Shown here one piece after another: positions 1,841 to 59,200 of a DNA stretch of 64,000 nt (position 1 is its first letter; each line of letters opens with the position of its first letter). The stretch comes from Bryum argenteum. Its lineage: Eukaryota > Streptophyta > Bryopsida > Bryales > Bryaceae. The stretch lies in the NCBI GenBank assembly GCA_037043015.1, contig CM073325.1, positions 14,797,001-14,861,000 on the forward strand. The letters run 5' to 3'. Under the pieces are notes generated by a model. It worked only from the letters and a program-made list of their open reading frames with translations. It was not told the DNA's origin and did no database searches. The translations under genes and the position numbers were made by a program.

Positions 1841-3246
1841 AGTCATTGTTTTTGAGAATATATCTCCTTCCAATTGTAGCTCCATAAGTAGCTTCAAGAT
1901 CATACTTGGATATTAGAATAATAATAATAATAATAAATAAATAAATAAATAAATTTAAAAAAACGGTAAATACCAAGGGCAATAATATAAGCTATAAAAA
2001 AAGTATCATGTTACTGAAATAATATAGAACCATTCTAAGTAATTGGAGATGGACACACATTGATAGCTAGGAAGGTGTTCGGTTTTGCGCTTCATGTAGG
2101 ACCTCTCTGATTGATTTCAATGTGTTGAAATCTTTCTTGTCTTCATGAAAGTCATCATCGGCAATCATAGTGTTAGAGTCAATTTACACCACAGTGAAGA
2201 AGTCCTCCGATCAAGAAATTAAGGAAATTATAACCATCTTAACCCCTAAATTTCCTTGTTGCAAAAAGGTCTAAGTCATAAAAATTGACCTTCCTTTATA
2301 TTACGCTCAAAAAATCTCAATCTGAGCATTATTCAAAAGATTCAACCGTAAGATCTCAAAGTTCACTTGACATTCTTCTCACATACCAAATTTGAACCGT
2401 TCATTCTTCCTCATTTGTGAGATTATAATGGTCAAAGTTGGCTGAGTTTTTCTCCTGCGGGAACCTCCAAAACCCGTTTTGGGTTTTAAGGAAAGTTAGG
2501 GGTTAATAGAAAGTGAGACTCTTGGAATGTATTTGGTTGAATATGAAATTCTTGATCCATTGGTGGCCTTTTCCACCGTAGTGTAAACATGCCCTCAGTC
2601 CTATGGGGTGCACGTGATAGTGTTCAGTGTAAGAGCATGTCCAGCCCTGAGCTTTAGGCCGGGTCGCTCAGCTACATGAAAAGCTTGCAAGCGTTGCTCC
2701 TCCGGGCGATGCAACCCCACCCTAGACCAGCAGATAGGGTAGAGGAAAAAATCTGCTTACCAGTCACATTTGCTCACAAGCCACTTACAATAGAAATTAT
2801 TTTCTGCCAGTAAAGTTTTTGCTAAAGTTTCTGCCAATGTACTGTGAAAAAAATTGGAATCGAGTCGATGGCAGGCTGAAGAGCTCCGCAGTTTGTGGTG
2901 AGGAGGGGCGGAGAGGACAACAACCATCTGCTTCGCAGCATGCTGCTGCGATAGTAATGTGTTGATGAGATAGTAGTGTGTTTTGTAGTAGAGGGAAAGT
3001 GCAAGGAGATGTCCCATCGTTTGGCATTCGGAAGAAAGCTTTCGAAAAAGTTTGTGGAGATCTAGATCTACACAAACAGATCTGAAAGGTAGGAGCACCT
3101 ATAGTGTTGGCAGATTGGTTTCCTTAGGCTGGGCTTTGGAAACCACCAAAGGATTGGTAGTCTCCAGCACACTTCTTTTAAAACTCCAGATGCACAACTA
3201 GATCTGACATGCCTTTCCGCCCCCTGCACCAAGAACATGGAGATTT
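1841..3246. other. AT-rich intergenic DNA with an (AATA)n microsatellite
   Basis: A run of AAT then AAAT units lies at about 1918-1953. The stretch from 2640 to 3240 is less AT-rich and has short overlapping minus-strand frames (up to 113 codons at 2757-3098). None resembles a known protein or has a plausible exon structure. I see no gene. Confidence 0.4.
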
Positions 3247-3310
3247 GAACAATGAAAGACTCAAACTCGAGCTCAACAACACACAGGCCTTTTCTTACCA
3301 CTAAACTCTT
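3247..3310 (-). repeat. possible tRNA-derived SINE head (A- and B-box-like)
   Basis: On the minus strand an A-box-like TTTAGTGGTAAGA is followed about 20 bases later by a B-box-like GAGTTTGAGTC. The order and spacing suit a tRNA-derived promoter, but the tRNA fold is poor and no body or tail can be delimited. The call is weak. Confidence 0.25.
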
Positions 3311-5513
3311 TTGTATTCTATTGATATTTTGCTATCTAACACTATACAACACATATATTCTTATATGGCAAAACCTATCTAACATTCACAGTAACCTCAA
3401 TCTCTGCAGAACATTTTCTACTCCGAAGACGTCTAACCCTGCAGGAACTAGACCACTAGTCCAACACTACCACACAAGAGCCGCGTTCCAGAAGCCCCAA
3501 TCAACCGCAGTACCTGCAACCAACAACGGAGGTGAATCCAAAAGAACAAGAAAGCGAGATACAAGATCGAGAGGCATCGAACAAGTGATGTTCCATAGTC
3601 ATGTGATTGACCATGCTCCAGTGCAAAAAAGACAGGACCTTGAAGAACGTTACCTCATATCTACCCCAACGGCTACACACCAGGTAAGTAACCGTAACCC
3701 TATCTTCTCAAAAGATTATTTATTTCAAATTCCTTACTTAACCATTTCTAAAGAAGTAGAAACAAGTAGATCGACTTCAAATCGATCAATCTACACCATA
3801 CAATCAAAACTCAACTGTGTAAACCCTAACAAGTTTAAGATTCTACTACAACCTAGAAGTCAGTTAATAATAGCGCATAAATACAAGAAGGAGAAGCGTT
3901 GCAAACCCTCTTTGGCCATCACACTGAAAACTTGCGCTATACATTCCATAGCTTTCAGTCTGCCTGCCATTAAGCAATTGCTGAACTGTTACAAATTTGT
4001 GAGAGAGTGTTTCTGCTGGAGTTTTACTGTACCTGTTAGAACTACTCGAGAGGTAACCAAAGTAGAGAGTGGTTGCTGGAGCATACACTTGAAGGTGATC
4101 GTGAACATTCGAGGTGCTGAGGAAACTAGAAAAACTCACAAAGGAGCCCAACCTGCTTCTACATGCTACAAGTGGATTGTAGTTGTTGATAGTTGCTGCC
4201 AACTTCAACCTAACAACGCAACAGGTATCACACATCTGTTTTTGAATATACTACATTTTCCTACACTGATCATATTACTCCCTAGCACGTCTTGTGAATC
4301 GATTGTGCATACAGAGACAGAGTTGTCCACACCTTTGGAAATTGTGCTGTCGAAGTTAAGATTGCGAACAAGCCTGTCAAATCGAGCAAAGTTGCCGCCA
4401 TTTCGCCCCTTGGTGTTGCTGATTAATTGTTCCTCTTGTTACTCCACCGTTCACTTGTTGCTGTTCCACACAATGAGACTAGTGTTGCTTCGAGCAACCC
4501 TGATAGTGGTGCAAAGTACATTAACACCACTCCTGCCGAGAAGAAGCTTCTTGCGTCATCAAGTGTTACCGTTGCTATGGAGAAAGTTGCTGTGGAGAAA
4601 GCTGCTGTGGAGAAAGTTGTGTAAGAGAAAGCTGCGCCAACTATCAAGACTGTCAAACCACTCAATTGCCGAGACGATATTGCTGCTCCAACGGTCTCCT
4701 TCACAATTGCTGCACTCATTGCTCCAGAACGTTCTACTGACCAGAAAACCACAAACGTTGTTGGTGATACAACGAAACAAGCCATCGAAAGAGAACAATT
4801 TGCTGTTGCTGCGACCAAAGCATCTGGTTCGGAAACCCTCACCGCAAAAGTCCCCTACCGCACGAAAGACAATCACTTTGTGGAAAGAAGCTGCCATCGT
4901 AAGTGAAGAAGAGCCAGGTATGTTTTCGAATAGACTTTTTATGTCTATATTCTTTGATTTGACGTATCAAAATGTCAATTGTAGTACCATGTGTCTTAGA
5001 GTGCCCAAAGGTTTGCATGTAACACCATGCAAGTACTTCAATAGAATGTTTGCATATAGTATGGTGCAAGTATTATGTAAGGCAAGAGGACTCCTTTATT
5101 TTGAAAGGGAGCCTCTTTTTATCACCCATTTAGTAAAACTCAAAGTTTTGGGCTGGGGTTATTGTGTTTGTAGTAAAGAAGATAGAAATGCATGCATTCA
5201 CAAAATGAAGAAAATAAAGACATTGTTTAGAAATAAGATTAGGAAAATTATTGAATTATACAGAACTTGTATATCACCCTCTACAAATCTTCATAAAAGT
5301 GCATGGTATGTAGCCCACTGTAAAACATGGATATTATGTAGTTTTCTATATGGATTTGTTAAACATGTTCAATATTTTATCTACCTTCTCTCAAAAGCTA
5401 CCTACACAAGCCCTCAAATTAAGTTGTTGGAAGTGGGTAGTTTAGAGATCAAAGAAGGTAAAACTATGAAATTGAATACAAAAATTTCTTACAATTATTT
5501 TTTGTTTAATAGA
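3252..5513 (+). other. 754-codon open frame upstream of ORF1, identity unknown
   Basis: The frame that later encodes ORF1 is already open from 3252, an extension of 754 codons without a stop in AT-rich DNA. The translation does not look like a conserved protein: it is Leu/Ser/Thr/Arg-rich with no recognisable domain. Within it another frame (4427-4906) gives a more protein-like Ala/Val/Glu/Lys-rich stretch with a 'VAVEKAA' repeat, broken by one TAG at about 4622 and ending at a donor-like site (CGTAAGTG, near 4900). A second donor-like site (CAGGTAAGT) lies near 3680. It may be the retroelement's 5' leader, captured host exons, or a real N-terminal extension. I cannot decide between these. 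Confidence 0.3.
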
Positions 5514-7132
5514 ATGGCATCTGCAAGCTCAACCAACCCCATGCTAGGCAACTCAGGTGAGAATGAAATAAACATCCTACATAAGAGGCAAACAAATGAG
5601 CAAGAAAACACAAGCCAAAAGAAGGTTAAGAGCATGGAGATTACAACTCCTCGCCCTCCCTTTTGGCTAGGATTTCAAGCTCTTAACCTCACCAACCAAT
5701 CAAAAAATCTACCTAAAGAGAGTTTTGTGCCGATTCATTACTTGATAAAAAGAGGAATGGAGTTTGAGGAGGCAAAAGAAGCTGTGAATGCAACCCCTTC
5801 ATTCCCTTTCGTCATTCAACAAGAATGGCCTTATGTAAGGGAAGATGGGGTTGAAGGTCAACATTTCAACTTGACACAAATACCTTTTGATGTCGAAGTT
5901 GATGACCAAGGCTTTGCCCTTGACTACCACATAGCAATTCATTTTGAGATACATGGTGAAAAATGGTCAAAGGAAGTGATCTTGGAAAAAACTAAAGAGA
6001 GACTTAGAAAAATGGTGATTGAAGTGGGGGAAGACATTGGTGAACCCATCGCGGTGATTTGTTTTCACAAATCAACCACATGGAATGGGGTTTTAAAAAT
6101 TCACCTCAAAAATCCCCATAAGGATGGAAGGGACCTTCTCCAAGGAACGAGGGCATTCATCCTAATATTGGATGATAATGTCTCTCGAAGGGGAAAGGTG
6201 TGCAAATCTTATGATGCACTAGCCTTAAACAACCTTCTTTCTACCAAAATCGCAAGTGAGAATTTGAGAAACAAAGAATGGTACACTGTTTTAGAAGAAA
6301 CGGTGATAGAGGGATTCAAAAGAGGGTATGAGTTTGAAATCACCAATGTCCAAAAGAAAAAAGAGTTTGACTTTGCATGGGTTGTTGCACCATCACCCGA
6401 GCAAGCATACAAAATAGTTAACTTTAAAATCTCAATTGACAATGAGATTTTGGAGCCTAGGTTTACCACAAGTGAAAAACTAACGGAGAAAGAGAAAGCA
6501 AAGAAGAATGCCCTCATCTCATAGTTAAGAATCTAAATAAGATCAAAGGTACTCAAGAGATTGAGTACAAATTGAGAAAACTCATGGGCGAGAATAATGT
6601 CGTCAATGTGTTTTTCCGGCTTGAGGGGGGGAAACATGTAGGAAGTTGCAATGTACAATGCCTAAACCCGGCCGTCTACAAAATATTTCTTAAAAAGAGT
6701 GTTAAGATTTTGGGAAAATATGTGGAATTTACACCTCACCCTAAGAGTCTAGATGGTATTCATGCACCTACCCAAGAGGAGTTGGATAGGTGGGGCTTTG
6801 CGGATATCAATACAGCTCTTGCAAACACAGTGGAGGCAATGGAGAATGCACCAAACAAGGGGTATACCAAGGAGGACTTGAAGAATCTCATGAAGACTGC
6901 GGTTCAAGAGGGCAACAATGAAATAAGGAAGGAGATGGTCACCATGAAACAAAGCATAATTGTGAAAACAAAAGAGCACGTGGAATTGGTCACACGGGAA
7001 GCATCAAAGAAGATGAATGTGCAATTGGCATTACTCAAACAACAATTGGCAACTACCATGCAATGCATTGATAGTGCGGTGGAGAAATCGGAGGGGTTTG
7101 CTATTGAAGGAAACATGGACATGTCAAACTAA
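5514..7132 (+). pseudogene. retroelement ORF1-like protein with RRM-like modules (one frameshift)
   Basis: The protein begins MASASSTNPM and reads to a stop at 6524. A second frame (open before ATG 6572) continues it to 7132. Reading the second frame back across 6512-6571 gives 'HLIVKNLNKIKGTQE', a natural continuation, so one indel near 6500-6515 splits a single protein of about 540 residues. It holds three alternating beta/alpha modules that look RRM-like: around 'WNGVLKIHLKNP' (6080-6170), 'YEFEITNVQKKKEFDFAWVV' (6330-6390) and 'HLIVKNLN...VVNVFFRLEGG' (6515-6740). A Lys/Glu/Gln-rich, coiled-coil-like tail follows (6860-7130). Single-stranded-nucleic-acid-binding ORF1 proteins of LINEs have this plan, and ORF2 follows 305 bases downstream. 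Base use is unlike ORF2, since G is not depleted, so membership of the same element is likely but not proven. Confidence 0.55.
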
Positions 7133-7437
7133 TTTTGACAAACAACCGCTTGGTAAATTCTAAATTATTATTGTTGGTATATTTATATACCATGGTAAAA
7201 AACAATAAGGTATTACTAAATACCACCTATATTAAAAAATTAATCAACTCCAAGTCTAAAACATATATAAATAATAATCTGAAATCAAATAGAAAGAAAA
7301 ATTAAATAATAAGAAAAATTAAAACAAAAATAATAAAGAAAACAAAAGATGAAACAAAAATCTCTATTACAAAAACCAAAGGAAACAAATATACAACCAA
7401 AACAAAAGAAAACAAACTTAATAAAACGACATGGAAT
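7133..7437 (+). other. spacer between ORF1 and ORF2
   Basis: Very AT-rich, becoming almost pure A with scattered C and T after 7260. This marks the start of the G-depleted composition that continues through ORF2. No gene is seen. A short inverted repeat, GGTATATTTATATACC, lies at about 7175-7190. Confidence 0.5.
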
Positions 7438-7563
7438 ATGAATGGACATAGATACAATATATCATTTTTTAGAACATTCAAACTAAATGAAAATTTGAAA
7501 AGAAAGAAAAATAGAACTTATAAACAAAAACCAAAATTCACAGTTTCCTACTCTCCACAAAAC

Positions 7564-8010
7564 TTAAGAATAAAAACAATCCACGGTATATTTGGCGAGA
7601 ATAAATTGTCCGTTCAAACTACTCTTGGAAAGAAACCCAAAACACACCCCAATAAATCCACCTCAAAAACCTCATACAAAAACCACTTTGAAAACCACTC
7701 ACAAATAAATACGTTAAAAAAACCGAAAACACACTCTTCACTAAACTTAAGAATAAAATCAATCCACAATAAACACATTATGAATAAAGTGTCTATTCGA
7801 ACTACCCTTCGCAAAAAACCCAAACGACACCCCAACAAACCCATATTGAAAAACTTACATAAAATCCACTTTGAAAAACTCTCACAAATAAATACATTCA
7901 AAGGATCTAAAACACACTTAAGAATAAAAACAATCCATAATAAACATGACATAAATAAAGTGCCCGTTCGAACAACCAAAGGTCCAAGGACACAAAGCTC
8001 AAAACCAAGT
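7564..8010 (+). repeat. tandem repeats in the LINE leader (183 and 171 bp units)
   Basis: Units start at 7564, 7747 and 7918, each with the encoded signature 'LRIK(T/S)IH' followed about 10 codons later by a 'K(V/L)..(R/Q)TT' block and 'KKPK.HPNK'. The third unit is truncated near 8010. The unit length is whole codons, so the repeats are visible in the protein as about 60-residue repeats. Tandem 5' monomers are also known as promoter units of some LINEs, so the repeat may act as DNA rather than protein. Confidence 0.8.
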
Positions 8011-8601
8011 GTATTTTTCAAAACAATCAAAAATAGAAAATCTACATCTACAAATGGTCTAAGAAAAAATAATAAAATAGAAAATAACAAAAATAGGATT
8101 ACAAAAACAAATAGGAAAAACATATATAGATATACACTTACTACCTCCACATTTACACACTTTTTCAAACTTATATACCTCCTCATATATATTCTCCTAT
8201 ACATCATCCCAAAACCCCACTACGTAAAAATATTTTTCTCCCCCCTAAGAAACAAATATAAGCTCTCAACCATCAAAAGAAATACCAACCCAACCCCAAA
8301 CACATTTACAATCCCACACCCGGATCTAAACTCTAATCCAACACACACCTTACTTACATCCCCAAATCAAAGTATATCCCCTACTACGTACCCAACTCTC
8401 TTCCAAGATTCAAAACAAAACCTCCACTTCCACCCAAAAGTTAAAAACGACACACCCAAATCTCACCTAAACAAACTAAAAACCCTCCCAAACTACATCA
8501 ACAACCCAAAACCCCCATATCATGATGTAAAAATGAAACATATAAAATATCCTCCACATAAACACAAAGTCTCCACTAAAAACAAGAAAAATCACATATC
8601 G

Positions 8602-8649
8602 ATACTACTAATTCTCTGCGGAGATATCGAGACCAACCCTGGACCTATG
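8602..8649 (+). other. 2A-like ribosome-skipping peptide (GDIETNPGP)
   Basis: In the ORF2 frame codons 8602-8646 read ILLILCGDIETNPGP, matching the 2A consensus D-x-E-x-N-P-G-P with a hydrophobic run before it. Asp is codon 396 of ORF2, and the skipped bond would lie between Gly (8641-8643) and Pro (8644-8646, residue 403). 2A peptides cause the ribosome to release the upstream chain and continue. The basic leader (residues 1-402) would then be made separately from the enzymatic part. 2A-like sequences near the N-terminus of non-LTR elements are known, for example in trypanosome L1Tc and some animal LINEs. ATG follows immediately at 8647. Confidence 0.8.
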
Positions 8650-9282
8650 CCAAATATACTTGGAACACACCCACCCGCCCATAAAAGAAGAAATAAACTA
8701 TACTTTATACCTTGCACAATCAAACTTCACCCAGAATACCAACAATTAGCAACACAATTTGCTCCATGTTTAAACACCACACACCCAAAACATCAAGAAA
8801 CAAATATAAACTACCCACACCTCACAAAGTACATATACGAAAATCAACATCACCCACCACCACGCATGTTATTTGCTCTTATCACTACAATGAGCCCGTT
8901 GCTCAAATCATGCGACCACATATTATCCCAACTACCTGATCCAAACTGGACAACTATACTTCTAGAAAAAATGACATTATTACAAAACCCACCTGAAAGA
9001 CACATTATAAACATACATCCTTATACCCTATTTACAGAAACAAACACAAATTTAATAAAACCCCCCAATACTATCCACAAAGAACTATACGAATATATCC
9101 AACATGGTAATACACCACCCAATCTACAAGACATCTCCAAACAATTCTCATACCTACCAGAGAACTTACTTAAAGAAGCATTAAAATACAACGACCCACT
9201 ACCAGAATACTCCCATCCTCCACCAGCCCCACACTTTCCACCCTTGCAAAATCCTGAAATGATATCAACAAATCATGAAACA

Positions 9283-10062
9283 CACATTATCACATGGAAT
9301 GCGTCCTCGTTAAACACAACTCTACCTAACCTCCAGAATCTTATCAACAACACACCAACTTGCCCAGCAATCATCACAATACAAGAAACAAAACTGACAG
9401 CAACTAAATCCACGAAATACATAGAAAACTTATTCCCAAACTACAAACTAATTTTCAACAACACCCACACTTGGACCAGATGCTTACAACAAAGAATGCC
9501 ATATACTCGTGCAAGAGGTGGCCTCCTTACACTTATAAACAACAAGTACGCATACCCAGGCAATATCACCAAAATTCCTACCCCTGCTAATATATCTCCC
9601 TATCTACAAATAATTAATATAAAAAACGCACCTCTCCACCCTTGGCTACTGATAAACATGTACATGCCATCACATCCAGACGACACTCAATACATAATAG
9701 CAATCCAAGAGCAAATTACTCAACAAATCACGACACATCCTAACCACACCTACATCCTCTGTGGAGACTTCAATAGAGACATAGCCCTAATAGGACGCCA
9801 AAACGGATCTAACACAATACCACCACAACCAGAAGACATCGATTGGCGTTCATTTACTGACAACCTCCAATTAACATACATTCCAACAAACAGCCTATAC
9901 ACTAGACAAGGGGGTCAAAACTACAGCGAAACCAGTTTGATAGATGGATTCTACATAAAAACCACCAACACAGGACTCTTTGCATCAAATACAACCACTG
10001 AACATAACTTAAACTCAGACCATTTTCCAGTGACCCTACAAATACCACCAAATACATTACTA
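9283..10062 (+). other. APE-type endonuclease domain of ORF2
   Basis: Recognisable motifs in order: 'TWNASSL' (Asn near 9298), 'IQETKL' (catalytic Glu, about 9380-9400), 'RGGLLTLI', 'NMYMPSHPDD', 'CGDFNRD' (about 9761-9781), and 'LNSDHFPV' (Asp-His at 10018-10023). The full set expected of apurinic-endonuclease-like target nickases is present and none of the active residues is missing. The domain sits directly after the 2A peptide and a Pro-rich linker. Confidence 0.85.
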
Positions 10063-10899
10063 AGAAGGCCTATGAACCCAACAACAAATAAACCTACAAG
10101 GATCCTAAACCCGATTCCACAAGATAATTTGGAGAAATTCAAAAGAATATTCTTTGAAGAGAACTCACACCGAATAAACGAGCTCACAACACTTCTTACA
10201 AACGAACAATTAACCAACAATCAATGGCAAACATCATGCACAAAATTAGACCAGCTAATACAACAAATATCGGAAAAAATTGAAGAAACTTGTAGCGCTC
10301 CTCCACTACCCACTTTAACACACCGCACAAACGAACAAGGCGGATTTCTACCAAGAAAACTACAAAAACAATGGAAAAAACACCTATCCACTTATCATCT
10401 GGTAAGAAAAGCAATATATATCACCAAAAACACACCAAGCTGGCACAATCATCCAATCATAGACAAACTAAAAAACCACCGCCACATAAACATCCCCTCA
10501 CCCCCCACGCAAGAAAATAACCCACAAGAATGGACAAAAACCTTAGCAAAACTAGCTAAAACTGCAAACAAAGAAGCACGAAAAATTACCACAAAATACT
10601 CTCAAACTTGCATAAAAAAGGCCATCACAAAATATAGACAATTATATGAAAAAAGCCCCAAAAAAATAAACAAAAAAGTTTTTAAAAACCAAGAAACACC
10701 ACCACTTGATTGCATCTTAGATAGCCACAATAACTTACTTACAAATCCCCAAGATATTGCAAACGAAATATACATTCAACAATCAAGTAGTAACCGACCC
10801 ACTGTCCCAACATGCTATTACCAACCTCAACACCCGTCCAAATGCACATGCGCAGTAAGACAATATCCATGGCATGATTTGGACGGATTCGTATTAGAA

Positions 10900-11760
10900 A
10901 AACGAGGCAACCCAGAAAAACCCTTATATGAGTATTTTAGTAAAGAAACATACGACTTGTGTTTAAAAAATCTATCTAATAACAAAACTCCAGGCCCTGA
11001 TAAAATTCCAAACTCTATATTAAAAAATATGCCCGAAAATTTCCACAAACTACTCTTCCTATTTTTTACCCACTGTTACAAACAACAGCAAATACCACCA
11101 TCATGGAAAATAAGTTTAACCATATTATTATACAAAAAAGGAGACCCTGCACTATTACCAAACCACCGTCCCATAGCACTAGCCAATACAATATACAAAC
11201 TATTTACAAGCACTCTAACACTCATACTTTCAGCATATGGCGAAAAGTACCAAATACTACATGACAGCCAAGAAGGATTCAGAGCAGAAAGAAGCACATC
11301 CCGCCAAATACAACTAATTATAGCAGCCTTAGAAGATGCACGACTCACAAATCAAGACATATACATTTTGTACATAGACTTTAAAAATGCATTTGGATCC
11401 CTTGACCACGCTCGACTACTCACAATAATAAAAGACCTTGGATATCCTTCACATTCAGTGTCGCTAATTGGAAACATCTATTCAAATTCATCTACCATCT
11501 TTACAGGCGAACACTTTGGTACAACAAAACCAATACCAATCCAAAGAGGCACCATTCAGGGTGATACACTGAGTCCATACCTATTTCTAATTTTCCTTGA
11601 ACCATTACTTCCAATGGCTACAAAGAGGTAACAACGGATATGCATTTCGCACATCAAAAATTAACATCAGTGCAGCAGCATATGCTGACGATCTAGCAGG
11701 CCTCGCGAATAATCTTCAATCTTTACAAACCCAAATAAATAAAATAAACAAATTCTGTGA
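10900..11760 (+). other. reverse transcriptase domain of ORF2 (frameshift inside)
   Basis: Motifs in order: 'NKTPGPDKIPNSIL' (about 10980), 'ILLYKKGDP' (about 11130), 'NHRPIALANTIYK', 'QEGFRAERST', 'LYIDFKNAFGSLDH' (motif A, about 11370), 'QGDTLSPYLF' (motif B, about 11560) and 'YADD' (motif C, 11681-11692). Motifs A-B and motif C lie in different frames because of an indel near 11600-11610. Downstream, 'YLGIHL' (about 11925) marks the palm/thumb. Confidence 0.9.
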
Positions 11761-13562
11761 ATGGTCAGGCATGGACCTAAGCGCACAAAAATGTGCTATC
11801 ACTGGATGTCCCAATAAATCCAAAACAAAACCTGAAAATTTTAAACAAGAAATACAACAACATAAAATCTCATATAGAAACCAACTAATACCCGTCCTAA
11901 ACCAAAATGAACCCTATATATATCTAGGTATTCACCTTGTACCATCATTAAAATGGAAAATTCAAACACATATCGCCACAAACAAACTAGCAGACCAATA
12001 CAAAAAACTAGCAAATTGCCCGGCCACAATAAAACAAAAAATTAATATGGTGAACACTGTCTTAAGAGCAGGCATCGCATACAGCTTTTATGCAGTTCCA
12101 TTCTCGTTACCAACCATCAAAAAACTTGACAAAAAAATCACAGGTATTCAAAAAAAATTTGCGGACTCCCTAAATGTACAGCTAATGTAATCTCACAACT
12201 ACCCCATGAACTATTCGGACTTGAAGCTTTCTCACTAAAAACCGCATACTTGCGATGCATCGGCGAACAACTCAGAAATGCTCTAAACGACCAAGGCAGA
12301 CTAGGTAATGTATATAGGGGACTTATACAACACATACTCTCTAAATATGGTGGTGCTGAAAACATCCCAAGAATAAAAGCACATGATTGCATAAGATCAC
12401 CAACCACTAGAACGTTATTTCTCCTTAAACAAGAAGGAGGTATCCACCTCAAAAGCACAAATGAAAACTTCCAATTACATATGACAGAATTAGAAAAAGA
12501 ATGGAATATACAAGCCTCGACCGAATTGCCACAAACTCAATCCCAAACTCTCAATCAAACTATTACACAAACTTCTACTTCATAACATACATAAAATAAA
12601 ACACATCACCCTCCCTAATGGAACAACTCTTATGTCACCAAATGATTTCACAACATATTACAAAAAACCAACTAGATTAGAAAAAAGCGCGCTAGAAGTA
12701 GCTGAACAATTATTTTGCCAACCAAGATGCACATCAAACTCCCCAAACCCTTACACTCAACACCCTCCTACCCGCACACTCAAAACAATATACACATCTA
12801 ACAATTTCAACCTACTACCAAGAACGACAAATACTCCACTCCAAACTACAATCCAACAACAAATTCAACACCCACGCCCACCTATAAACATAAAAAATAA
12901 CCCACTTAGATTTCCTATAAACGGAATAATAAATCACAAAACAATCACTACAAAAGACAAATATAAAATAGCAAAAAAATACAATACATACCTATGCCAA
13001 TGGCTACACAACAACACTACATATCAAAAATGGATACCTCAACGCGAATTATTTCCTTTTAACCACCCCTCAGTCATCTCACATAATACTAACCTCCTTA
13101 GAGAATACTACACGAAAATTCAACATGAACACTTCAAAAACATCATCAACACACATTTCACTCAAGAACAAAACAGAGACACTAGATTCATCCCCCCACC
13201 AACATCTACCCCACTTACACAAATACACATTGAAGAATGCAACCCGGAAAAAGATATTATGATTAACCAAGACACTATACAAATAAAAAAATGAAAAAAC
13301 GGACCTGTACGAAGATACTGGCCGCTACCTCACTACCATACCCACCACAAGATTAAATTGGCTATGGCAACAATACAACAAAGCTATGTACAGCTCACAC
13401 GACCTAGTGCCCCCAACACAATCATTTGAAAAAGAAGTAATATGGCTATATCAAAGATATAAGATTAAAACCACAAGAAACAACCCTCAAAACATAACCC
13501 ACCACACCCTACCTACCAGCATACTTGAACAAATCACTTCCGCCTTTAACATCACCCACTCT

Positions 13563-13840
13563 TACTTCTCATCGCCATTAACATGCCCTATACAAATCTC
13601 GGAATTTCACTCCCCTTTCGCAAGAGACAAAGTTTTTGGTTCACGTGGTACCGCCTTCCAATACAAATGGAAAGGAATAGGCTACGCCCATCCACATAAC
13701 AAAGAAGCAGCCCAACAAGCAATCCATTGGGCACGACTAGCAGCCAAAAATGATCCAAACACCATCACCATACTAGTTATCCCAGATACTAACTGGTACC
13801 ACAATCCATCTCCATACATTGGGCCTTTCCCAGACACACA
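13563..13840 (+). other. PCIF1-methyltransferase-like module in ORF2
   Basis: Residues about 60-150 of the last open segment read 'FSSPLTC' (from 13566), a Ser/Phe-rich stretch, 'DKVFGSRG' (13626-13649), then 'YAHPHN' (13683-13700) and a hydrophobic strand 'ITILVIPDT'. The PCIF1 adenine-N6 methyltransferase family has the same run: F-A-S-P-L-N, then FGS-x-G, then the catalytic NPPF, then a strand ending in I-P. Here NPPF is replaced by HPHN, so the fold may be retained with the methyl-transfer site lost or altered. The assignment rests on motif order recalled from the family, not on a profile search. Its role in the element is unknown. Confidence 0.5.
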
Positions 13841-14189
13841 TATAATAATCCACTTCTCAGCGGACTCAGTCACCTATGATATACCAACACCTCCCCCAAA
13901 ATATAAACCTGAAACCGAACCACTTGCAATCCAAATTATGTGCATCCACCACCAAAACCATAACATTGGAACACCCCAACAAATTAATAACATCAAAACA
14001 ACAATTGACAGCTTACAAATCCCAAACTACCACTTAGAAATTGCACCACCCACCCCGCACAACACACCAGTCAACAAAAATAAAATATGGAACAAACTTA
14101 CTTACCCTCCGCCAATCAACACTTCCTTCCTAAACACACCACCTCTACCAACATTTACATCCACCTCTACACTAAAATTTCAACCACAA

Positions 14190-14640
14190 TATAGTTATTA
14201 TACCGACGGCTCTTTTATACCCCCTACAGAAGCTCCAGATGGTCACTGGAAAAAAGAAAAAGCAGGGTACGGAATATACAATGCAACTAAACCAGACATG
14301 CAAATATCAGAAAGGCTCCCTGGGCTACAGACACCCTTCCGCGCAGAACTGATGGCCATACATACAACACTCAGCTTATTAACCACCAAATACCCAAACG
14401 AACCTGCATACATCTTCACAGATTGTATTAACTGCCTATACAACCTCAACACACATATTCTATACCCATCTACGCATAACAACCACGCAGACAAAATCAT
14501 ACTAACAGAAATGGTAGATCTCTTAAAATCCCGCACCCAACCTACTATATTCTACAAAGTCAAAGCCCACATAAACATTACAGGCAACGAAGAGGCCGAT
14601 AAACTGGCAAAAGCAGACGCCGTTAAAAGATACTCAATAG
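14190..14640 (+). other. RNase H domain of ORF2
   Basis: 'SYYTDGSF' (first Asp at 14205-14207), 'FRAELMAIHTTL' (Glu), 'IFTDCINCLYNL' (second Asp), and 'KAHINITGNEEADKLA' (His and last Asp) supply the DEDD site of type I RNase H. The domain would degrade the RNA template during or after reverse transcription. It lies in a frame uninterrupted from 13300 to 15653. Confidence 0.88.
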
Positions 14641-14984
14641 CCACAAGACCCCATGAATTTGCACATACAACACCATTCTACTTCCATAAATATGTATGGC
14701 CTGGACCTGAAAAACGACCAGACAAAGGCCCAGTCAGATGTCTTCAAACATACCTTCATGACTATGACCGAGCAAACAACATCGAAACACTCGCAAACGA
14801 CTTCCCGAACATCAGTAAATGGACTACAAACCTAGATATTGACAACGAACTATCAAATGCATACTGGCTAAACCCTACAATAACAGACTACCAAAAAACA
14901 ACTATTTTGAAACTTCGTACCGGCCAATACATGGGCAACGCAAGAAAACAATTATTCTTTGGCAGAGACAATTTTCCCTCGATT

Positions 14985-15480
14985 ACATGCTCTATTTGCA
15001 ACTCTACAGATGCTGACACATGGTCACACGTACTTCTTAAATGCAAACATCACCACATACATGCCATCAGAGTCAAAAGACATAATAAAGCAGTATGGGA
15101 AATTAGAAAACTAATCCTTTCATCACAAAAATCTAGATGCTACATCCTCATGAACGCAGGAACATTCAACAACAACCCTCAAGAAAACACAGTACCCCCA
15201 TGGTTGTTACCATGTTCTTGTGCACAACAAAGATGCTATTGCAATGCTCGATTCAAACCAGATATCCTTTGCGTAAAAGGACTCCCACACAAAAGCGACC
15301 CACCATCAAACCCTTCCGTAGAACTAACAATCCAATTTATTGAATTTACATACTGCAACGACAGATTCTCACAAGAAAAAATTGATAACAAGACCCATAA
15401 ATACCAACCTCTTATTGATAATATCAAAAACCTAGGTTGGAAAGTTGACCCACTAATAGTCATCACCACGGGATCTAGAG
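14985..15480 (+). other. C-terminal CCHC finger and PD-(D/E)xK (RLE-like) nuclease
   Basis: A C-x2-C-x9-H-x4-C finger ('CSICNS...SHVLLKC', about 14988-15045) is followed by a second Cys cluster ('CSCAQQRCYC', about 15210). Then comes 'RFKPDIL' (Asp 15261-15263), 'IEFTYC' (Glu 15342-15344) and 'HKYQPL' (Lys 15399-15401). A CCHC followed by (R/K)-P-D, an acidic residue in an 'x-D/E-V/F-T' strand, and K-Y is the layout of the restriction-like endonuclease of R2-type LINEs. Here the second acid is Glu. Together with the N-terminal APE domain this would make a dual-endonuclease element. Confidence 0.6.
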
Positions 15481-15653
15481 GCACAACACATATTCCATCA
15501 ATGAAATACCTTGAAGACAAATTCAACCTATCTAAAACCAAAATCAAACACACATTCAAAGAAATAAACACCATTGCCATACAATATGCTGGTTCAATTG
15601 TCCTACACAAAAGAAAACTCGAAAATAACCAAACAATACCAAATATTGACTAA

Positions 15654-16144
15654 AGAAACTCTACATTATAGTACTAAAAAGGAAGAGGGGGGGGGGGGGA
15701 GTAGTGGCGTAAACCACTAATCAAAGTAAAGTAGCACTTGTCTCAAGGTAGATGGGACGGGGCCGATTGATTGGTACAAACTTTCCTGCCTCTGATAAAA
15801 TCACGAGCAACACCAAGTCATGCGGATCACATTAAACGCTCAAACGAATCCAACGGGAATCGAACCCGGACCGCTTATATGCAACACAAACGTCCCTTCC
15901 AATCAATTTGGAACCATGACTTGGCGACCACCAATTGATTTTTACAACAATTATACCTATAAACAAAACCCAGGTACTAGTATTACTAGTACTTTCTCTT
16001 TGGCCACAAAAGTGTCTATTCCCGAAAGGGGTGAGTAGTCTTGTATCAATGGACCCCTGTCCAGTGGACATCGGCTCATTGTCTTGACGAACAGACACTC
16101 TATTCACGCCGGCCTTGTAAAAGGACCGGAGTTCATATCTATCT
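15654..16144 (+). repeat. LINE 3' region: G-run, hairpin, shared SINE tail
   Basis: After the ORF2 stop there is a 13-base G-run (15687-15699), then a perfect stem TAGTGG-CGTAAA-CCACTA (15702-15719). From about 16010 the sequence aligns with the SINE copies at 47.0, 47.8 and 52.7 kb. It ends in ATTCACGCC, a hairpin (CCGGCCTT 16109-16116 with AAGG-A-CCGG 16121-16129), GGAGTT and two ATCT units. Either this is the LINE's own 3' end shared with its SINEs, or a SINE inserted just downstream. Confidence 0.65.
15812..15925 (-). repeat. tRNA-like segment within a 10-bp inverted repeat
   Basis: CCAAGTCATG (15812-15821) and its exact complement CATGACTTGG (15916-15925) flank a segment that reads on the minus strand as a D-arm-like GGTTCC...GGAA, an irregular anticodon-like arm, and a perfect B box and T-loop (CGGGTTCGATTCCCG). 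The anticodon loop has nine bases rather than seven, and the acceptor pairing CCAA/TTGG is short. It is therefore more likely a tRNA-derived SINE head or tRNA relic than a working tRNA. Confidence 0.45.
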
Positions 16145-16863
16145 GAAAAAAATTGAAGGCATTAGGAGAGCATTTCATACTAGTTCCTTACTGCACAAGA
16201 AAGATGGGTAACCTCGACAGAGTGGCGGCGCCATAGCCGTCTCTCTGTAGCCATTTTAGAGTACCGGCATTGGTCAAGCAGCAGATGCAAGAGACTCGCG
16301 AGCTGCCTTTGATCGTTGACTCCCAGTCTCCCACTTCACATTCCTTCGTTGCACCTTCGCCAGGAGTTTCATCGATCCCCTACAATCTTCAATCCTCTCA
16401 AGTATTCCCGGAACACAGACCATCGATCGATGAAAGGCTGTAATAACCAGCCTGTCGCTTTATCTCCAGGGTCGGCACCACAGCGCTAGAACAGCGGAAG
16501 CAAGCTTGCCATTATTCTCAATCACCATACGAAAGCCAAGAGCCCGATACTGCTTCCACTTTGACCTGGGATCTCCAATCAAAATTAAATGACCAGATAT
16601 ATTCTGCCCCCGGAAAGGTTGCTTGTCGGATGTAATTCTGGTGCTCGATCATGGTAAGCGGATTCTGTTGGTCTTGCACAGTCCTCGTGGGAATTACTGC
16701 AACAAGCTCTGACTGGACTTGATCAGCTAGAGTGACAATCAGAGAGTGGTGCTCCGGGTGGTGATGGGTTTCCAGGGGAGCCGGAGGTACCTCTAGCAGT
16801 TTGCGTATCGAGCTTGATAAGTCTCCGCGGTATGCTGAGGTTTCCACTCCCGATCGTGAAGTC
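16145..16863. promoter_or_regulatory. upstream region of the peroxidase gene
   Basis: Composition changes abruptly from the AT-rich retroelement to GC-balanced DNA near 16200. The region has no frame of its own that I trust. It presumably holds the promoter and 5' UTR of the peroxidase. I see no clear TATA box. Confidence 0.4.
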
Positions 16864-47707: not shown

Positions 47708-47777
47708 AGGAAACCCCCACTTTTGAGTCGCTTCATCAATTGAGGAAACCCCCACTTTTGAGTCGCTTCATCAATTG
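47708..47777. repeat. 35-bp perfect tandem duplication at the SINE insertion site
   Basis: The 35-base unit starting AGGAAACCCCCACTTTTGAG and ending CATCAATTG is present twice without a mismatch (47708-47742, 47743-47777). The unit contains the sequence that also follows the SINE on its right side. Confidence 0.95.
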
Positions 47778-47779
47778 AG

Positions 47780-48090
47780 GAGGTCGTGGGTTCTAATCCC
47801 CATGCCGGCGTGGTGCTCACCACTATAGTCCACCCAACTATTGTGGGGGGTCTTTGGACCTTGTTGTATGGGTACCTCAAAGCCCTTTGGGGGGATACTA
47901 TGTCAAGTATCTTCAAGGCATTAGTAACTAGGCTAGAACCTAGCGTAGTTATAGTGTCCACCCTCGAGAGGGGAAGTAGTATTGTTCCAATTTCCCCTTG
48001 TCCGGTGACCATCGGGATATTAGCATTACGAACGGACACTTCATTCACGCCGGCCCCTTAGAAAGGGACCGGAGTTTCTATCTATCTATC
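47780..48090 (+). mobile_element. SINE with B box, 3' hairpin and TATC tail
   Basis: The copy starts at GAGGTCGTGGGTTCTAATCC, whose GGTTCTAATCC fits the Pol III B box. Any A box is lost or lies upstream. The 3' end has CATTCACGCC, a hairpin (CCGG 48050-48053 and CCCTT 48055-48059 with AAGGG 48063-48067 and CCGG 48069-48072), GGAGTT and three CTAT units. Flanks TCGCTTCATCAATTGAG (47763-47779) and TCGCTTCATCAATGAG (48091-48106) look like a target-site duplication. Confidence 0.8.
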
Positions 48091-52699: not shown

Positions 52700-52854
52700 T
52701 ACAATGAAGTGAATAAGTTTCTGAAATGTTATCTTTACAATTTTACCTCTTTGTCCTGTGGCCATTGAGGTAAAGACATTACAAACAGACACTGTATTCA
52801 CGCCAATCTTCGACTTGAAGATTGGAGTTCTTATCTATCTATCTATCTATCTAT
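52700..52854 (+). mobile_element. SINE 3' end with perfect hairpin and TATC tail
   Basis: From about 52757 the sequence aligns with the other copies (TTGTCCTGTGGCCAT, then ACAAACAGACACTGTATTCACGCC). The hairpin is CCAATCTTC (52803-52811), loop GACTT, GAAGATTGG (52817-52825), nine perfect pairs. It is followed by GAGTTC and six TATC-type units to 52854. The 5' part is unclear, so the copy is either truncated or too diverged to recognise. Confidence 0.75.
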
Positions 52855-53249: not shown

Positions 53250-56200
53250 TTAGCACATATTCCAAAATAACATCACCAATAACATAACCAACACATAGTA
53301 TGTGGAATTATTAAGTTGTTTGCAACCACCAAGTTGATTGTAACTGGCAATTGAATTAGAGCCAAATTGACTGTGATTAAAGAAGGTGATTGTATTTGTG
53401 GTAATGTCCTCCTCCTTTACTTTTAATGAATACTTGAAATTGTTTTTTGGAGGCTCAAAGTTGTCATGAAGTCCTGCCCATCCAACAGGGCTATAGTTCT
53501 TATCCATTTTCACCTTAATGAGACAAATCCTTGAATAAATTGTCACAAAGTCAAATGAAACACCCGTAATAGTGGGAACCACATTCTTGAGTATATCAAA
53601 ATCCGCAATTCCATCCTTGTCAAGTTGCACTACTTTATATGCATATCCTTTACCAATTTTCTTAAGGTTTGTACAAGAGGCAGTAATGGTAGTAGTAAAC
53701 AGATCAGCCATGGTGAGACCAACAATATCAAAGTCACAAACTTGCAACAACTTGACTAACTTCTTATCCCGATTTAAAGAGTCTTCACCATCTTTCGATA
53801 AGGGACTCCATCTATTGAAACAAGCAGCGGTAACTCCAAACTCTACCCCAAAACCTTGATCAACAGCAATAGTGGTGAAAAAACTTCCCATATTACTAGA
53901 GAGGTACACTGGTCCTCCTAAGGGATTAAGTGGATTTTGGGGCAACTTAAAGCCTAAAGCTCCAATCGTGAACATGGTCTTATCAACAACTGAGGGTGAC
54001 TCAAAAGCATTGTTGTGGTAAATCATTGTTGCCAATAATATTGGAATGTATGATATTTGGTCCATCAACATTTGTGCTTCAGTACCCGTTTTGAAGCATT
54101 TTAATTTCACTGCTTTTACAAACATATCACCTGTGTCTAAAAATGTCATAATAGGTGTGCCAACTATAGTTGGAACCTTTATACCATATCGTGCAACTTT
54201 CTCTAGTTTTTCCATAAAAATATGTAAGGCTGCTTTAAACTCATTTAAGTTAAGATTTTTAGGGCGGGAGACAAATCTACTATATATACTTGCGGTAACA
54301 AGTGCAATGTATGGGCCCGAACCAGACTCAATAGCATTCCCTTGACTTGCTACTGGATATTGAGGATCGTTGAAAGAAATGGTACCCATCATGTCTTTAA
54401 TAACCTTCTTATTTCCGCCTGAACCGCAAGTATTGCCTAATTTAGGAAATGCTTGGGAAGCGTATGCTTCCATGGACACAAGACTTTGGAAATACATGCC
54501 TCGTCTGGCAAAATCGTAGTAGTTGGACACAAGTGATGGAGCACTAAGGAGTGATATGCGGCCTTTTTTCACCATTATTGGTTCAAATTCAAAAAGAGTT
54601 CCATAAGGTGCATCATTTGGCATAAATCGAACTGGCCCTGGATTGATTACATATACTCGAAAGATCACCATGCCAGGACTTACAAACACATCAGTCACTT
54701 TGTTAACGATCGAAACAGGTCTTAGAACAACTTCTTTGGTAATCTCTCCATCATTATTCATGATCACATAACGGAACTCATATTTTAAAAACCCAATCAT
54801 GTCGCCACCAGGTGTCCATCCATATGCTCGTATTGTATACATTGTTGAGCCTGCAACATGTTCTGTAGCTGGATTTGAACTCAACTCTACCGTCCCACCT
54901 GGTCAAATAAGGATGAAATTTACAAATCATTACATGAATCTTGTAAGAACTTCATTAATGAACCAATTTTAAATATCATATGAAATAAAATAAGCATTTA
55001 TACCTGATGGTTCTGCTAACGTGCGAATAGAAACTGATGCGATACCGCTGACTCCTTGCATATTTGTAGCCATGCAAGAAAAGTTATACAAAGCCCCTGG
55101 TACCAATGTTCCTGGCTTAATTCGCATAGTGCTTTCATCAATCATTTCCACCTATCTCATGTACCACATGTAAAGTTCGGTTAGTAAATTTAAAACAAAG
55201 GCTACAATTCTAAGATTTCTAAATTGGATAATTATTTAGTTTTTCATTTGACTCTATAATTATATATATGGAAAACAATAGTTACTACACTACTTACCCC
55301 CATTTCCGCTTTTGATCTTTGATCCGCACTTGATTGTACAAACCACTTATAAGTACCTAGTTTTGAGCTACATGATACACGTAACAACCGCGAGACTGAC
55401 AAGCCATATGCCATTACTTCAGGTTGATTTGTTATTTTGGCAATTATACTCATGGCTGTACTCAAAGTGGTAATTGTTGCATTTGCAGTTGCATTGGTGC
55501 GTGTTATATCGGTATATGGAGCACGAGCCACCTAGAAATTATCTCATAAGTTAGTTATGAGTATTTAAATAAAAAAATACATCCTAAAAGATCAAAAATA
55601 GGAGGCAATATTTGCATTTGTGTAATTGGACAGAATTGTGGGTCAAACTTTTGTTTCGTCAACTTGATTTCTTATATTCAATCATGGTTAAGCTTTAACA
55701 AATCACAAAGACTTCACCCGTAATTCTTTTTTATAAGATGAATATAAAACAATGCAATAACGTCATTCATAAAGTATATATTACCATAGTTTCAAACATG
55801 AAGTACAAGAGATATTATAAATATAGTCATTAGTATCCTCTTATTTTTTGGACTTTTATAAGAAATACTATGTACCGTAACCATGAATGAATATGTTGCT
55901 CCATTCCGCAAAAAGCTTGATGGAATCATCAAAGTACGCTTAATATTACCTCCTACATCTGGATATATTATGGCATCGTACATAGAGGTCAAATCCAATT
56001 GGTCACAATACCAAGTATATTGAAAAGGATGTAAATCATCAACATTGCCTTCCACTGAATCATCAGGATCATAAACATTGGCCTTCAAGTAAAGATTCTC
56101 TGAGACATTGGCAACTCGGCTACCTCCAACAATTATTACCGTTAATGGAGATTGTGTGGCACGAACACCTACGGATGCAGTAGATGAGAGTTGAGGCGAG

Positions 56201-59200
56201 CTTGTTGGCCAACACCTCACCTGGAAAATATTACTAAAATATTTAAGTTGATTCATATACAAATCCAAATAGTTTTTTAGGAATAATTATAATACTTTGT
56301 TTCCTCAAACATGTGTGACTATTTCCTCTTAAACTAAAATCTACAACTTAGATTTGCAACCTTGAAAGATCACCAAGAACTAATGTTCAAAAATTATTGG
56401 TCATATTGTATGTTGTGATTATATTATGATGGAAAATTGAGACAAAAATGAATCCTTGAGAGATGCATGTATTACATCATATATAAAATCAATCATTCTT
56501 ATCAATCATCAATAGAGATGGATATGAAAACAAATTGCCATATGTTTTGAAATTACATGCTTAGTTGTTTTTTAATTTTATTTTTTAATTTTATTTTTTA
56601 ATTTAGTCTTCTACCAAACATTTATACATCAATATATAGCTTTTTTACTTTTTTGTATTGTACAACTAAACGTGAATGTACTATCAAAAACAACATAAGT
56701 GTGACTTTTTGTTTTCCAATAATTTTTTGGGAAATGTTACAATGATTGAAAATTAACATAATTAGAGGGATATTTAGTGATAAATTTAGAAATCTGTATA
56801 ACATGTCTAAAAAGTCATTCTAAATCATCCAATTAGATTTATTCTAGTTCTAGAAGGTCTGAGTTAATGAGATGTATTATAATTCAGTAATTCACTACTT
56901 TGAAAGCTCAGTTCGAGATTTTGCAATAAAGACATAAATGAAAAATATGACTACCAATCCAATTAATTTTGTGATATTAGAATTATGTTGCATTTGAGTG
57001 CACCCCCAAAAATGAAAAATTTAAGGATGATTGACTTTATTAAGCATGCATGTAACATGTTTTAGTATAGAATTCATTTAGCCTAAAGTTCAATAAGTCA
57101 AAATCTAAAAAACATAAGATTTTGGGATTAGTAGTCAATTAGAACAAACCTTATCACAAAAGAGTTTCCTTTAAAAATTTTTAAATTTTTAAAATATGAT
57201 AACTACAACTTCTTTTCTTTTTTTTCTTTTTTTTTTTTTTGAAAAAAATTCTTTTTAAGTAATTTCATGGTAAATAAGAATGTCTTAGTTTGTACCTGAA
57301 AAGCATATATTATGCCAGGTTTTAATAGGCTTCCTGGAATATTCAAGCTACGAGCAGTCCATCCAATGGTTTCTGATTCTAGAGTAGTTACTCCTGTTTG
57401 TGACCACTTATAAGAGAGGGGAGCTCGTGCAGGCATGGGTTTTTTGTTGTGTTTGGACACTAAAGCACATACACCATCTGGTTGTAGAGCAAAGCCATGA
57501 GAGAGGCGAGCATGAGCTTCAAGTTCCACAGTCTCCCAACGCATGACTTCAAGAAGCTTTTGGTTGTCTCGGATCGAAAGTTGTGGTATTGGTGTGCGAA
57601 CCGTATGCAAAGTTAGTGTAGCAGAATCTGACATGCCAAGGTAATTTGTAACAATGACTTCAAAAATGTAAGTTTGATCTGGATCTAAGATGCCTCCAGC
57701 AATGTTCACTACCATTTGGGAGGGAATTGATTCAAGGTAACTTGCAATAGCTGCAAGTTTATCAGGGTCCCCAGTACCACGCACATAGAAGTTATATTGC
57801 AATGCCCGCCCAGCTGCGCCACTAGAACTTGAGGCATCTAAGGTAATATTGTCACATACTCCTGTGATTATAGGACCAACTAATTGCGCCACTGGTGGAG
57901 GCATGAAGCTTGTTATACCCAAAGGCACCCACCCCATTAAAGGTGCAGAAGTATCATCTTGATTGTAAAGGTTTCCTAATAATGTAACATTATCACCTAT
58001 GCCACTATCTATTGGCATTATGGTGGCATTGTACCTATATACGTTAATATCAAAAATTGGTTACTAAAACATTATATCTAGAATGATTTTTTTATCACAT
58101 TATTGGTTTATACATGGTGTAAATTAAAACTTATTTCAAATAAGGATCATTGAGATAGTGGATAAAACAACCTAAAATCTTGAGAAGAAAAATAAATAAT
58201 ATAAAGATCTTTAGTTGTGGAAATTAGCTTATATAGCAAAGTATATTATAGGATATTTCAATTTATGTTCCACATATAAGTTCATGTTTTTTATAGTTCA
58301 CAAGCAATGAACATGTTTAAACATGTTTGGTGGATTACCCCAATTGGATGATCATAGTTTGGGCATTAGCAAAATAACAGTTTGGTCCTTGACCAATCTT
58401 GTCCATCACTGATGAATCTAATGTATTGTTGCATCGTTGCCAACCTAAATGTGCTCCATGCAACCCTACAAAACTTGCATATCCTGCATCTGTTGGTGAA
58501 TCAAATGTTACAGCAATGGATCCTAAGTTCTTTGACAAAGTTGCGTTCAAAGCAATTGGTCGTGTTCCAGGTAGTACTTGCACATTTTCATAATTAAGAA
58601 TATTTTCAGGGTCCCAAAATATAGAAATGTTCAATGATCTAGGCATAGTAGGTGTAAAAACAACTTTGGTTGTATACAGTGGATTGTAAGGATTGCATAT
58701 ATTCAACTCTTCCGAATTTGTTGATGCAGAACTACATGGTGAAATGACTGAAGAAGCATATGATGGTGCATTGAATTGCGAGATGAGTACTTGGGGCAAG
58801 ACATAGTTTGGATTGCTATAGCTATCCAATGCAATGATTTGGAAACTTGCAGGGTTACCAGCTTTATACACTTCAGTTGGAATAGATATTGTGGTTATAT
58901 TTAAGTCTACATGTCCAGGTAGTACAGTGACCGTCGAATATTTAAGCCCACGTCCACCACCTCTTGTTAAACTATCACCAATAATAATATCATAATATCC
59001 TGCTTTGCACGGTGTTATCGTTGCCACAAAATGACCCAAAGTCTCATTAGAAGGTGTTACAAATGTGCTATAGTTTCTTCCTTGATTCTCCAACACTACA
59101 TAAATATTTCCAGCCTCTGTGATTGGATTCTGATACTTATCTTGAGCGGATACAACAAACATAAATTCTTGACCAACTATAAGTGGTTCTACTAGTGATG

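Follow-up and report, generated by a model that had tools for sequence, protein, structure and literature searches.

Nearly all long interspersed nuclear elements (LINEs) have one DNA-cutting enzyme, and a layout with two has been described mainly from green algae. The Dualen set consists of an apurinic endonuclease-like domain (APE), a reverse transcriptase (RT), RNase H and a restriction-like endonuclease (RLE). The 2005 description of Dualen reportedly also includes a cysteine protease domain; to our knowledge, neither a PCIF1-like domain nor a 2A peptide belongs to the description of the Chlamydomonas element. Here we analyze a 64-kb stretch of the genome of the moss Bryum argenteum (hereafter the window), which lies within a 22.2-Mb contig (C5) of a 258.8-Mb genome and contains one LINE insertion on the + strand, at 2857-16143. 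We consider it very probable that this insertion is full-length but mutated, and that it belongs to an abundant land-plant family of LINEs in which the second open reading frame (ORF2) encodes an APE at the N-terminal end and an R2-type RLE at the C-terminal end.

Dualen is described as coding for an APE plus a PD-(D/E)xK-like endonuclease (PMC3636483, PMC4640811) and its group as having RNase H; from the position of dual-endonuclease LINEs, APE LINEs are held to have arisen via RLE replacement (PMC4640811). One study found Dualen in each of its core-Reinhardtinia species (PMC8226300), and it is annotated in most cryptophytes (PMC12747079). In Chlamydomonas the SINEX elements and RandI have common tails with short-repeat ends (PMC3747384). 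For plants, a 2022 review lists only L1 and RTE (PMC9033089), and two LINEs of Physcomitrium patens (LINE-1 and LINE-2) are reported, of unstated type (PMC7466625). Among the open-access titles and beginnings of abstracts listed, which included papers on PCIF1 and retrotransposons, and with Repbase outside the search, we found no report of such a dual-endonuclease LINE in a land plant; a related moss element may nevertheless already be in print.

Results

ORF2 has an APE domain and a predicted R2-like endonuclease

ORF2 of the window copy is legible solely as five separate open pieces, which were put through Pfam one by one (features are on the + strand unless stated otherwise). The APE domain (9289-10032) exceeded the curated cut-offs with both PF03372 (E 1.8e-6) and PF14529 (E 2.9e-6), and all six of the signatures sought are legible, at 9292, 9379, 9658, 9760, 9934 and 10009. 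It is followed by the RT (11143-11935), which is broken by a frame change near 11600, matches RVT_1 in two open pieces (1.5e-17 and 9.9e-8) and has YADD at 11681, and by RNase H (14190-14618; PF00075, E 4.2e-12) with the motifs D, E, D and GNExADK. Natural copies with long frames (L026 with 2,941 codons and L025 with 2,613 codons) show the identical domain order; in L025 both APE scores fall slightly under the Pfam cut-offs.

The original prediction had placed a CCHC finger after RNase H, followed by KPD, IEFT and HKY residues arranged as in the endonuclease of R2, and all of these were located. The zinc knuckle (14988-15044; C-x2-C-x9-H-x4-C) is invariant in 13/13 sequences of an alignment of copies (A2), and the adjoining domain (15075-15650) has RHN at 15078, KPD at 15255, IEFTYC at 15339 and NKTHKY at 15387. 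In the same 13 copies, which are 62-83% identical to the window copy and from which the conservation of K-x2-K-Y was taken, the PD, E and K-x2-K-Y residues are also invariant. The second catalytic aspartate of R2Bm, Asp1009, is replaced by glutamate in the element (position inferred by motif order).

Because detection by sequence alone failed (the best PDB profile had an E of 1.1, and no Pfam match exceeded its cut-off), we took a structural route to this domain. The best structural matches of its AlphaFold2 model (pTM 0.71, mean pLDDT 68) are R2 proteins. Two weak search matches spanning only residues 176-232 were treated as chance. The predicted match of the C-terminal region to RLE or PD-(D/E)xK proteins was thus borne out by the predicted fold and not by sequence profiles. 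Together, the modeled fold and the diagnostic residues support the C-terminal domain being an R2-like PD-(D/E)xK nuclease.

Both nucleases are conserved across an abundant family

The domain features of the window copy are not chance, because they recur across many copies in the genome. Copy counts are lower bounds, as they come from places scored among longer candidate lists. The 755-amino acid (aa) C-terminal ORF has at least 59 matches (scored of 948 candidates, window included), the others with 58-98% aa identity, and they are present on every contig from C1 to C11. The RLE stretch has at least 150 matches scored of 678 candidates, with 61-97% aa identity outside the window copy, and PCIF1_WW at least 150 scored of 209.

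Signatures were read in 21 copies, a non-random sample made up of the window copy and 20 others picked from the list of C-terminal ORF matches. The APE signatures N, E, Y, DxN, D and SDH were legible in 16, 16, 15, 18, 19 and 20 of these, respectively, and the set was complete in 10/21. The RT A and C motifs were each found in 18, the four RNase H motifs in 21, 19, 19 and 19, CCHC in 20, and the PD and E of the RLE in 21 and 19. Every tested APE and RLE signature occurred together in 8/21, and the majority of the fetched copies are damaged somewhere.

Ratios of nonsynonymous to synonymous substitution (dN/dS, NG86 method) among L019, L025 and L026 were 0.08-0.12 for APE, 0.07-0.12 for CCHC plus RLE, 0.06-0.12 for RNase H, 0.06-0.09 for the PCIF1-like domain and 0.04-0.05 for RT (two of three pairs estimable). 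Against the more distant L011, at or close to saturation of synonymous sites, the ratios that could be obtained were 0.06 and 0.15 for APE, 0.07-0.12 for RLE and 0.15 for the PCIF1-like domain. APE and RLE are both under purifying selection, and the RLE and PCIF1-like domains are constrained about as much as APE. The expectation of a complete APE on the N-terminal side of ORF2 is therefore upheld by the Pfam scores, the six signatures and the selection on the domain.

These data bear on whether the RLE is a relic that, as in Prp8, persists to bind DNA or to aid folding, with all cuts made by APE as in L1. A structural relic need not retain a catalytic set, yet PD, E and K-x2-K-Y are kept in every copy of the alignment, and the dN/dS of the RLE is as low as that of APE. 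The putative first-nick site, described below, is also R2-like rather than of the L1 type. We regard a relic RLE as unlikely.

The element resembles Dualen/RandI in architecture

In profile comparisons the RT scored 132.7, 124.1 and 123.6 bits with vertebrate R2, 78-80 with the L1 ORF2p in PDB and 64-68 with R2Bm. In this comparison with R2 of three species and the PDB L1 ORF2p, the RT beats its L1 score with R2 of two of the three; these are scores rather than a tree. They would fit an RT that is intermediate or leans toward R2, and not an ordinary L1. In the Dualen/RandI group, the RT is placed between the RLE groups and the APE groups.

The zf-RVT domain is taken here as the C-terminal mark of plant L1. 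It gave no row at E <= 1 in ORF2 (Pfam, window copy and long-frame copies), and elsewhere in the genome it has at least 113 matches (150 of 151 candidates scored). That abundance shows plant L1 marks in the same genome, and a plant L1 has an APE, two ORFs and sometimes RNase H, so the element might be read as an ordinary plant L1 plus an unrelated C-terminal extension. In place of these expectations, ORF2 is without zf-RVT and has the extra RLE fold and a PCIF1-like domain, its C-terminus folds like the RLE of R2, the tail is (ATCT)n and not poly(A), and the RT scores lower with L1 ORF2p from PDB than with vertebrate R2. This reading is disfavored, and we consider it very unlikely. As far as they go, the RT scores, the missing zf-RVT and the fold match speak against an RT inside ordinary plant L1 with a C-terminus unlike PD-(D/E)xK nucleases, the outcome that would have gone against the original prediction.

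The element shares with R2 the top RT scores (with vertebrate R2), a CCHC finger with an RLE bearing RH, PD, an acidic residue and K-x2-K-Y, and a G|T first nick. Unlike R2, which has a single RLE, no APE and specificity for ribosomal DNA, it has APE, RNase H, ORF1 and scattered insertions with target site duplications (TSDs).

Three features of Dualen/RandI are present: APE N-terminal to RT in one ORF, RNase H, and an RLE C-terminal to RT (by fold and residues). The (ATCT)n tail, and a short interspersed element (SINE) in the window that shares it, also fit the short-repeat tails reported for RandI, which is no formal criterion. Unlike Dualen/RandI, the element has a land-plant host, a PCIF1-like domain between RT and RNase H, and a 2A peptide in ORF2, and no protease family exceeded its Pfam cut-off in the element proteins; the likeness is one of architecture. 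ORF1 of L011 and L013 gave a sub-cut-off Peptidase_C39_2 row (E 0.12-0.22). In architecture, this land-plant family of LINEs is of the Dualen/RandI type, with 2A and a PCIF1-like module in addition.

The same architecture could have arisen by convergence outside Dualen/RandI, either by independent gain of APE and RNase H in an R2- or HERO-like RLE element or by gain of an RLE in an APE element. The RT scores with vertebrate R2, the PCIF1-like and 2A parts, and the lack of a protease match would all be at home in such a lineage. On the other hand, APE, RT, RNase H and RLE together are the Dualen set, and common descent is simpler given green-alga and land-plant hosts. The SINEs related to RandI are likewise short-repeat-tailed (PMC3747384). 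We judge convergence to be improbable.

The host is a land plant

The window contains a cinnamic acid 4-hydroxylase (C4H) gene ~22 kb downstream of the LINE (6vby, E 2.8e-95, the sole PDB match at E <= 1e-40), and in the genome there are ~15 NAC loci, from 28 exon matches, and five matches to SAM_LFY, of which one is strong (1.1e-28) and the other four are weaker. These genes mark the host as a land plant, and the low number of NAC loci suggests a seedless one, probably a bryophyte. With both nuclease domains present and constrained, the data support a land-plant LINE with two endonucleases (APE plus R2-type RLE). Since green algae are known to carry Dualen, which is also annotated in cryptophytes (PMC12747079), we considered whether algal or oomycete DNA contaminated the assembly. 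The element, however, is embedded in a 22-Mb contig, with a peroxidase gene 0.6 kb downstream and the C4H gene beyond it, and copies are on all eleven contigs, which makes contamination extremely unlikely. Viral contigs held no relatives of the RT, RLE or PCIF1-like queries.

ORF2 has two further unusual parts

The original prediction named a 2A peptide and a PCIF1-like part as additions to the element, and both are real, the latter without its NPPF motif. The 2A-like StopGo peptide GDIETNPGP (8620-8646) lies immediately upstream of the conserved part of ORF2, and its signature is present in 15/21 copies. A 2A-like motif is shared with the 2A-bearing LINEs of Odon et al. 2013 (via PMC12846837), which by title are of the APE type; the element differs from them in also having an RLE.

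The PCIF1-like domain (13401-13787) matched PF12237 (PCIF1_WW) with an E of 4.5e-12. As in the cap methyltransferase PCIF1 (CAPAM), it has an FGSRG-type motif that aligns with solved PCIF1, but ANPPF of the solved protein aligns to AHPHN or a variant of it, and the domain sits inside a retrotransposon protein. NPPF, the catalytic motif of PCIF1, occurred in 0 of 30 readable stretches from 23 places (seven of them cover a place already read), so the domain lacks this mark of an active PCIF1 methyltransferase. Because NPPF is replaced, methylation by the known mechanism is unlikely. Modeling gave no usable structure (mean pLDDT 38). The low dN/dS argues that the domain does something, and judging by its residues, binding of RNA or protein is a likelier role for it than methylation.

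The 3' end and target sites bear the marks of target-primed reverse transcription

The 3' untranslated region (UTR; 15651-16143) ends in a conserved structured domain of ~130 nt and a short ATCT-type tail; truncated copies likewise show the conserved 3' hairpin and then (ATCT)n. Across 14 sequences of the ~130 nt, 93.6% of cells were paired, versus 32-47% when the structure was slid, and in 26 cells both sides had changed (shuffled mean 11.7). The alignment behind this test is also the one from which the structure was derived, and one helix was added by hand.

For TSDs we took 20 truncated-copy loci and left out L044, L052, L054 and L056, whose 5' ends lie beyond or at the edge of the stretch fetched, and L059. 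A flanking repeat was found in 11 of the 15 copies tested by script, and none in L050, L055, L057 and L061. Clear TSDs are mostly 10-14 bp, with lengths hand-trimmed from the script words. Shuffled flanks matched the TSD score in 0-2/200 or 0-1/60 trials, and in 6/200 for L049, whose weak 8-bp TSD was excluded from the junction count below and whose -1 base is likewise G. Insertions are at scattered target sites. The 5' truncations, conserved 3' RNA structure, (ATCT)n tails and, mostly, TSDs are marks of target-primed reverse transcription.

At 15 tail-TSD junctions, the base preceding the first nick was G at 10 (binomial 1.1e-4 at p = 0.2; local G 0.173) and the base after it T at all 15. Ten junctions came from scripts and five were set by eye (the window LINE, the L009 insert, the window SINE, L035 and L045 on the minus strand); two truncated ends in L022 and the window fragment at 52740, none with a clear TSD, were left out. 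The L1-type nick site is T|A, whereas R2Bm requires T(+1) and a non-28S R2 insertion lies at G|T. In our reading, the first nick is probably the work of the RLE. Two points limit these findings on the 3' end and its target. The T at every junction is explicable by the last T of the tail, as ambiguous junctions were set before T. In the 3' structure, pairs changed on both sides numbered 7, a count that 59/500 shuffles reached, and there were 18 pair types, against a shuffled mean of 20.8, so that neither stands out.

The window also holds a SINE (~47741-48090), tRNA-like with a B-box-like stretch, which has the LINE 3' structure and ATCT tail at its end and a 13-bp TSD adjoining a 35-bp tandem repeat of the target. 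At 52740-52844 is a short 5'-truncated 3' end of a related subfamily, which finishes in (ATCT)n. Another subfamily has left a short 3' fragment at L009:540-667 on the minus strand, with the TSD TACTAAAAAGGA; its host site is the 3' UTR of the window copy's nearest relative. The truncated copies L045, L051, L053 and L057 all begin no more than a few bases from the foot of the 3' structured domain; the RT might frequently halt there, or these might be a tiny SINE. On the strand opposite the 3' UTR (15840-15930) is a tRNA B-box-like GGTTCGA; ARAGORN found zero tRNAs in the window.

The window copy is dead but full-length

The interval first singled out, 9283-15480, lies inside the element but is merely its middle, as homology and TSDs give a full span of 13.3 kb (2857-16143). 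Homology with a second copy begins at window position 2867 (L037:602), and at the 3' edge homology stops at ~16144 in many copies. Just outside the 5' homology is an exact A-rich 12-mer, TGAAAAAAATTG (2845-2856), repeated exactly at 16144-16155.

ORF1 (5514-7132) has an assumed start codon at 5514, a frame change near 6520 and a stop at 7132; the open frame 3249-6524 includes its N-terminal part. Pfam gave nothing over cut-off for ORF1, frames of 463-499 codons of which are open in L011, L013 and L014. ORF2 is disrupted between 11.6 and 13.4 kb. The window copy is therefore dead, given the frame change in ORF1 and the five pieces of ORF2. Between the ORFs lies a hairpin (7204-7249) weakly resembling the histone 3' stem-loop (Rfam RF00032, 25.6 bits, below the gathering threshold of 34; E 0.0013). 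Histone stem-loop and IMES-2 identities were rejected, as their Rfam rows fell under the gathering threshold. A comparable hairpin, judged by eye, is 3' of the ORF1 stop in other copies.

Other genes in the window are a DUF4005 protein, Clp protease pieces, seryl-tRNA synthetase pieces and a filamin-repeat gene. Long open frames lie at 53250-61988 on the minus strand; the one at 58338-60272 scored above cut-off for filamin repeats and weakly for GEX2 Ig-like.

Discussion

A possible course of integration can be outlined for this Dualen/RandI-type element. Its RNA would be translated with a 2A break preceding the conserved stretch of ORF2. The CCHC/RLE module would nick the first (bottom) strand, favoring G|T in the top-strand sense as in R2, and the freed 3'-OH would prime reverse transcription on the structured 3' end. 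The top strand may then be opened by a second nick ~12 nt away, plausibly by APE, and RNase H would remove the RNA. We offer only tentatively the combined proposal that the two nicks are split in this way and that a PCIF1-like module lacking the catalytic motif was recruited for RNA handling; it could well be wrong.

The second half of LINE integration has been called very poorly understood (PMC6895275). If true, a division of the nicks between RLE and APE accounts for top-strand cutting in this element. The PCIF1-like module is an addition to the retrotransposon parts list. With selection acting on both of its nucleases, this abundant land-plant family is a living system in which to ask why both are retained and which strand each cuts.

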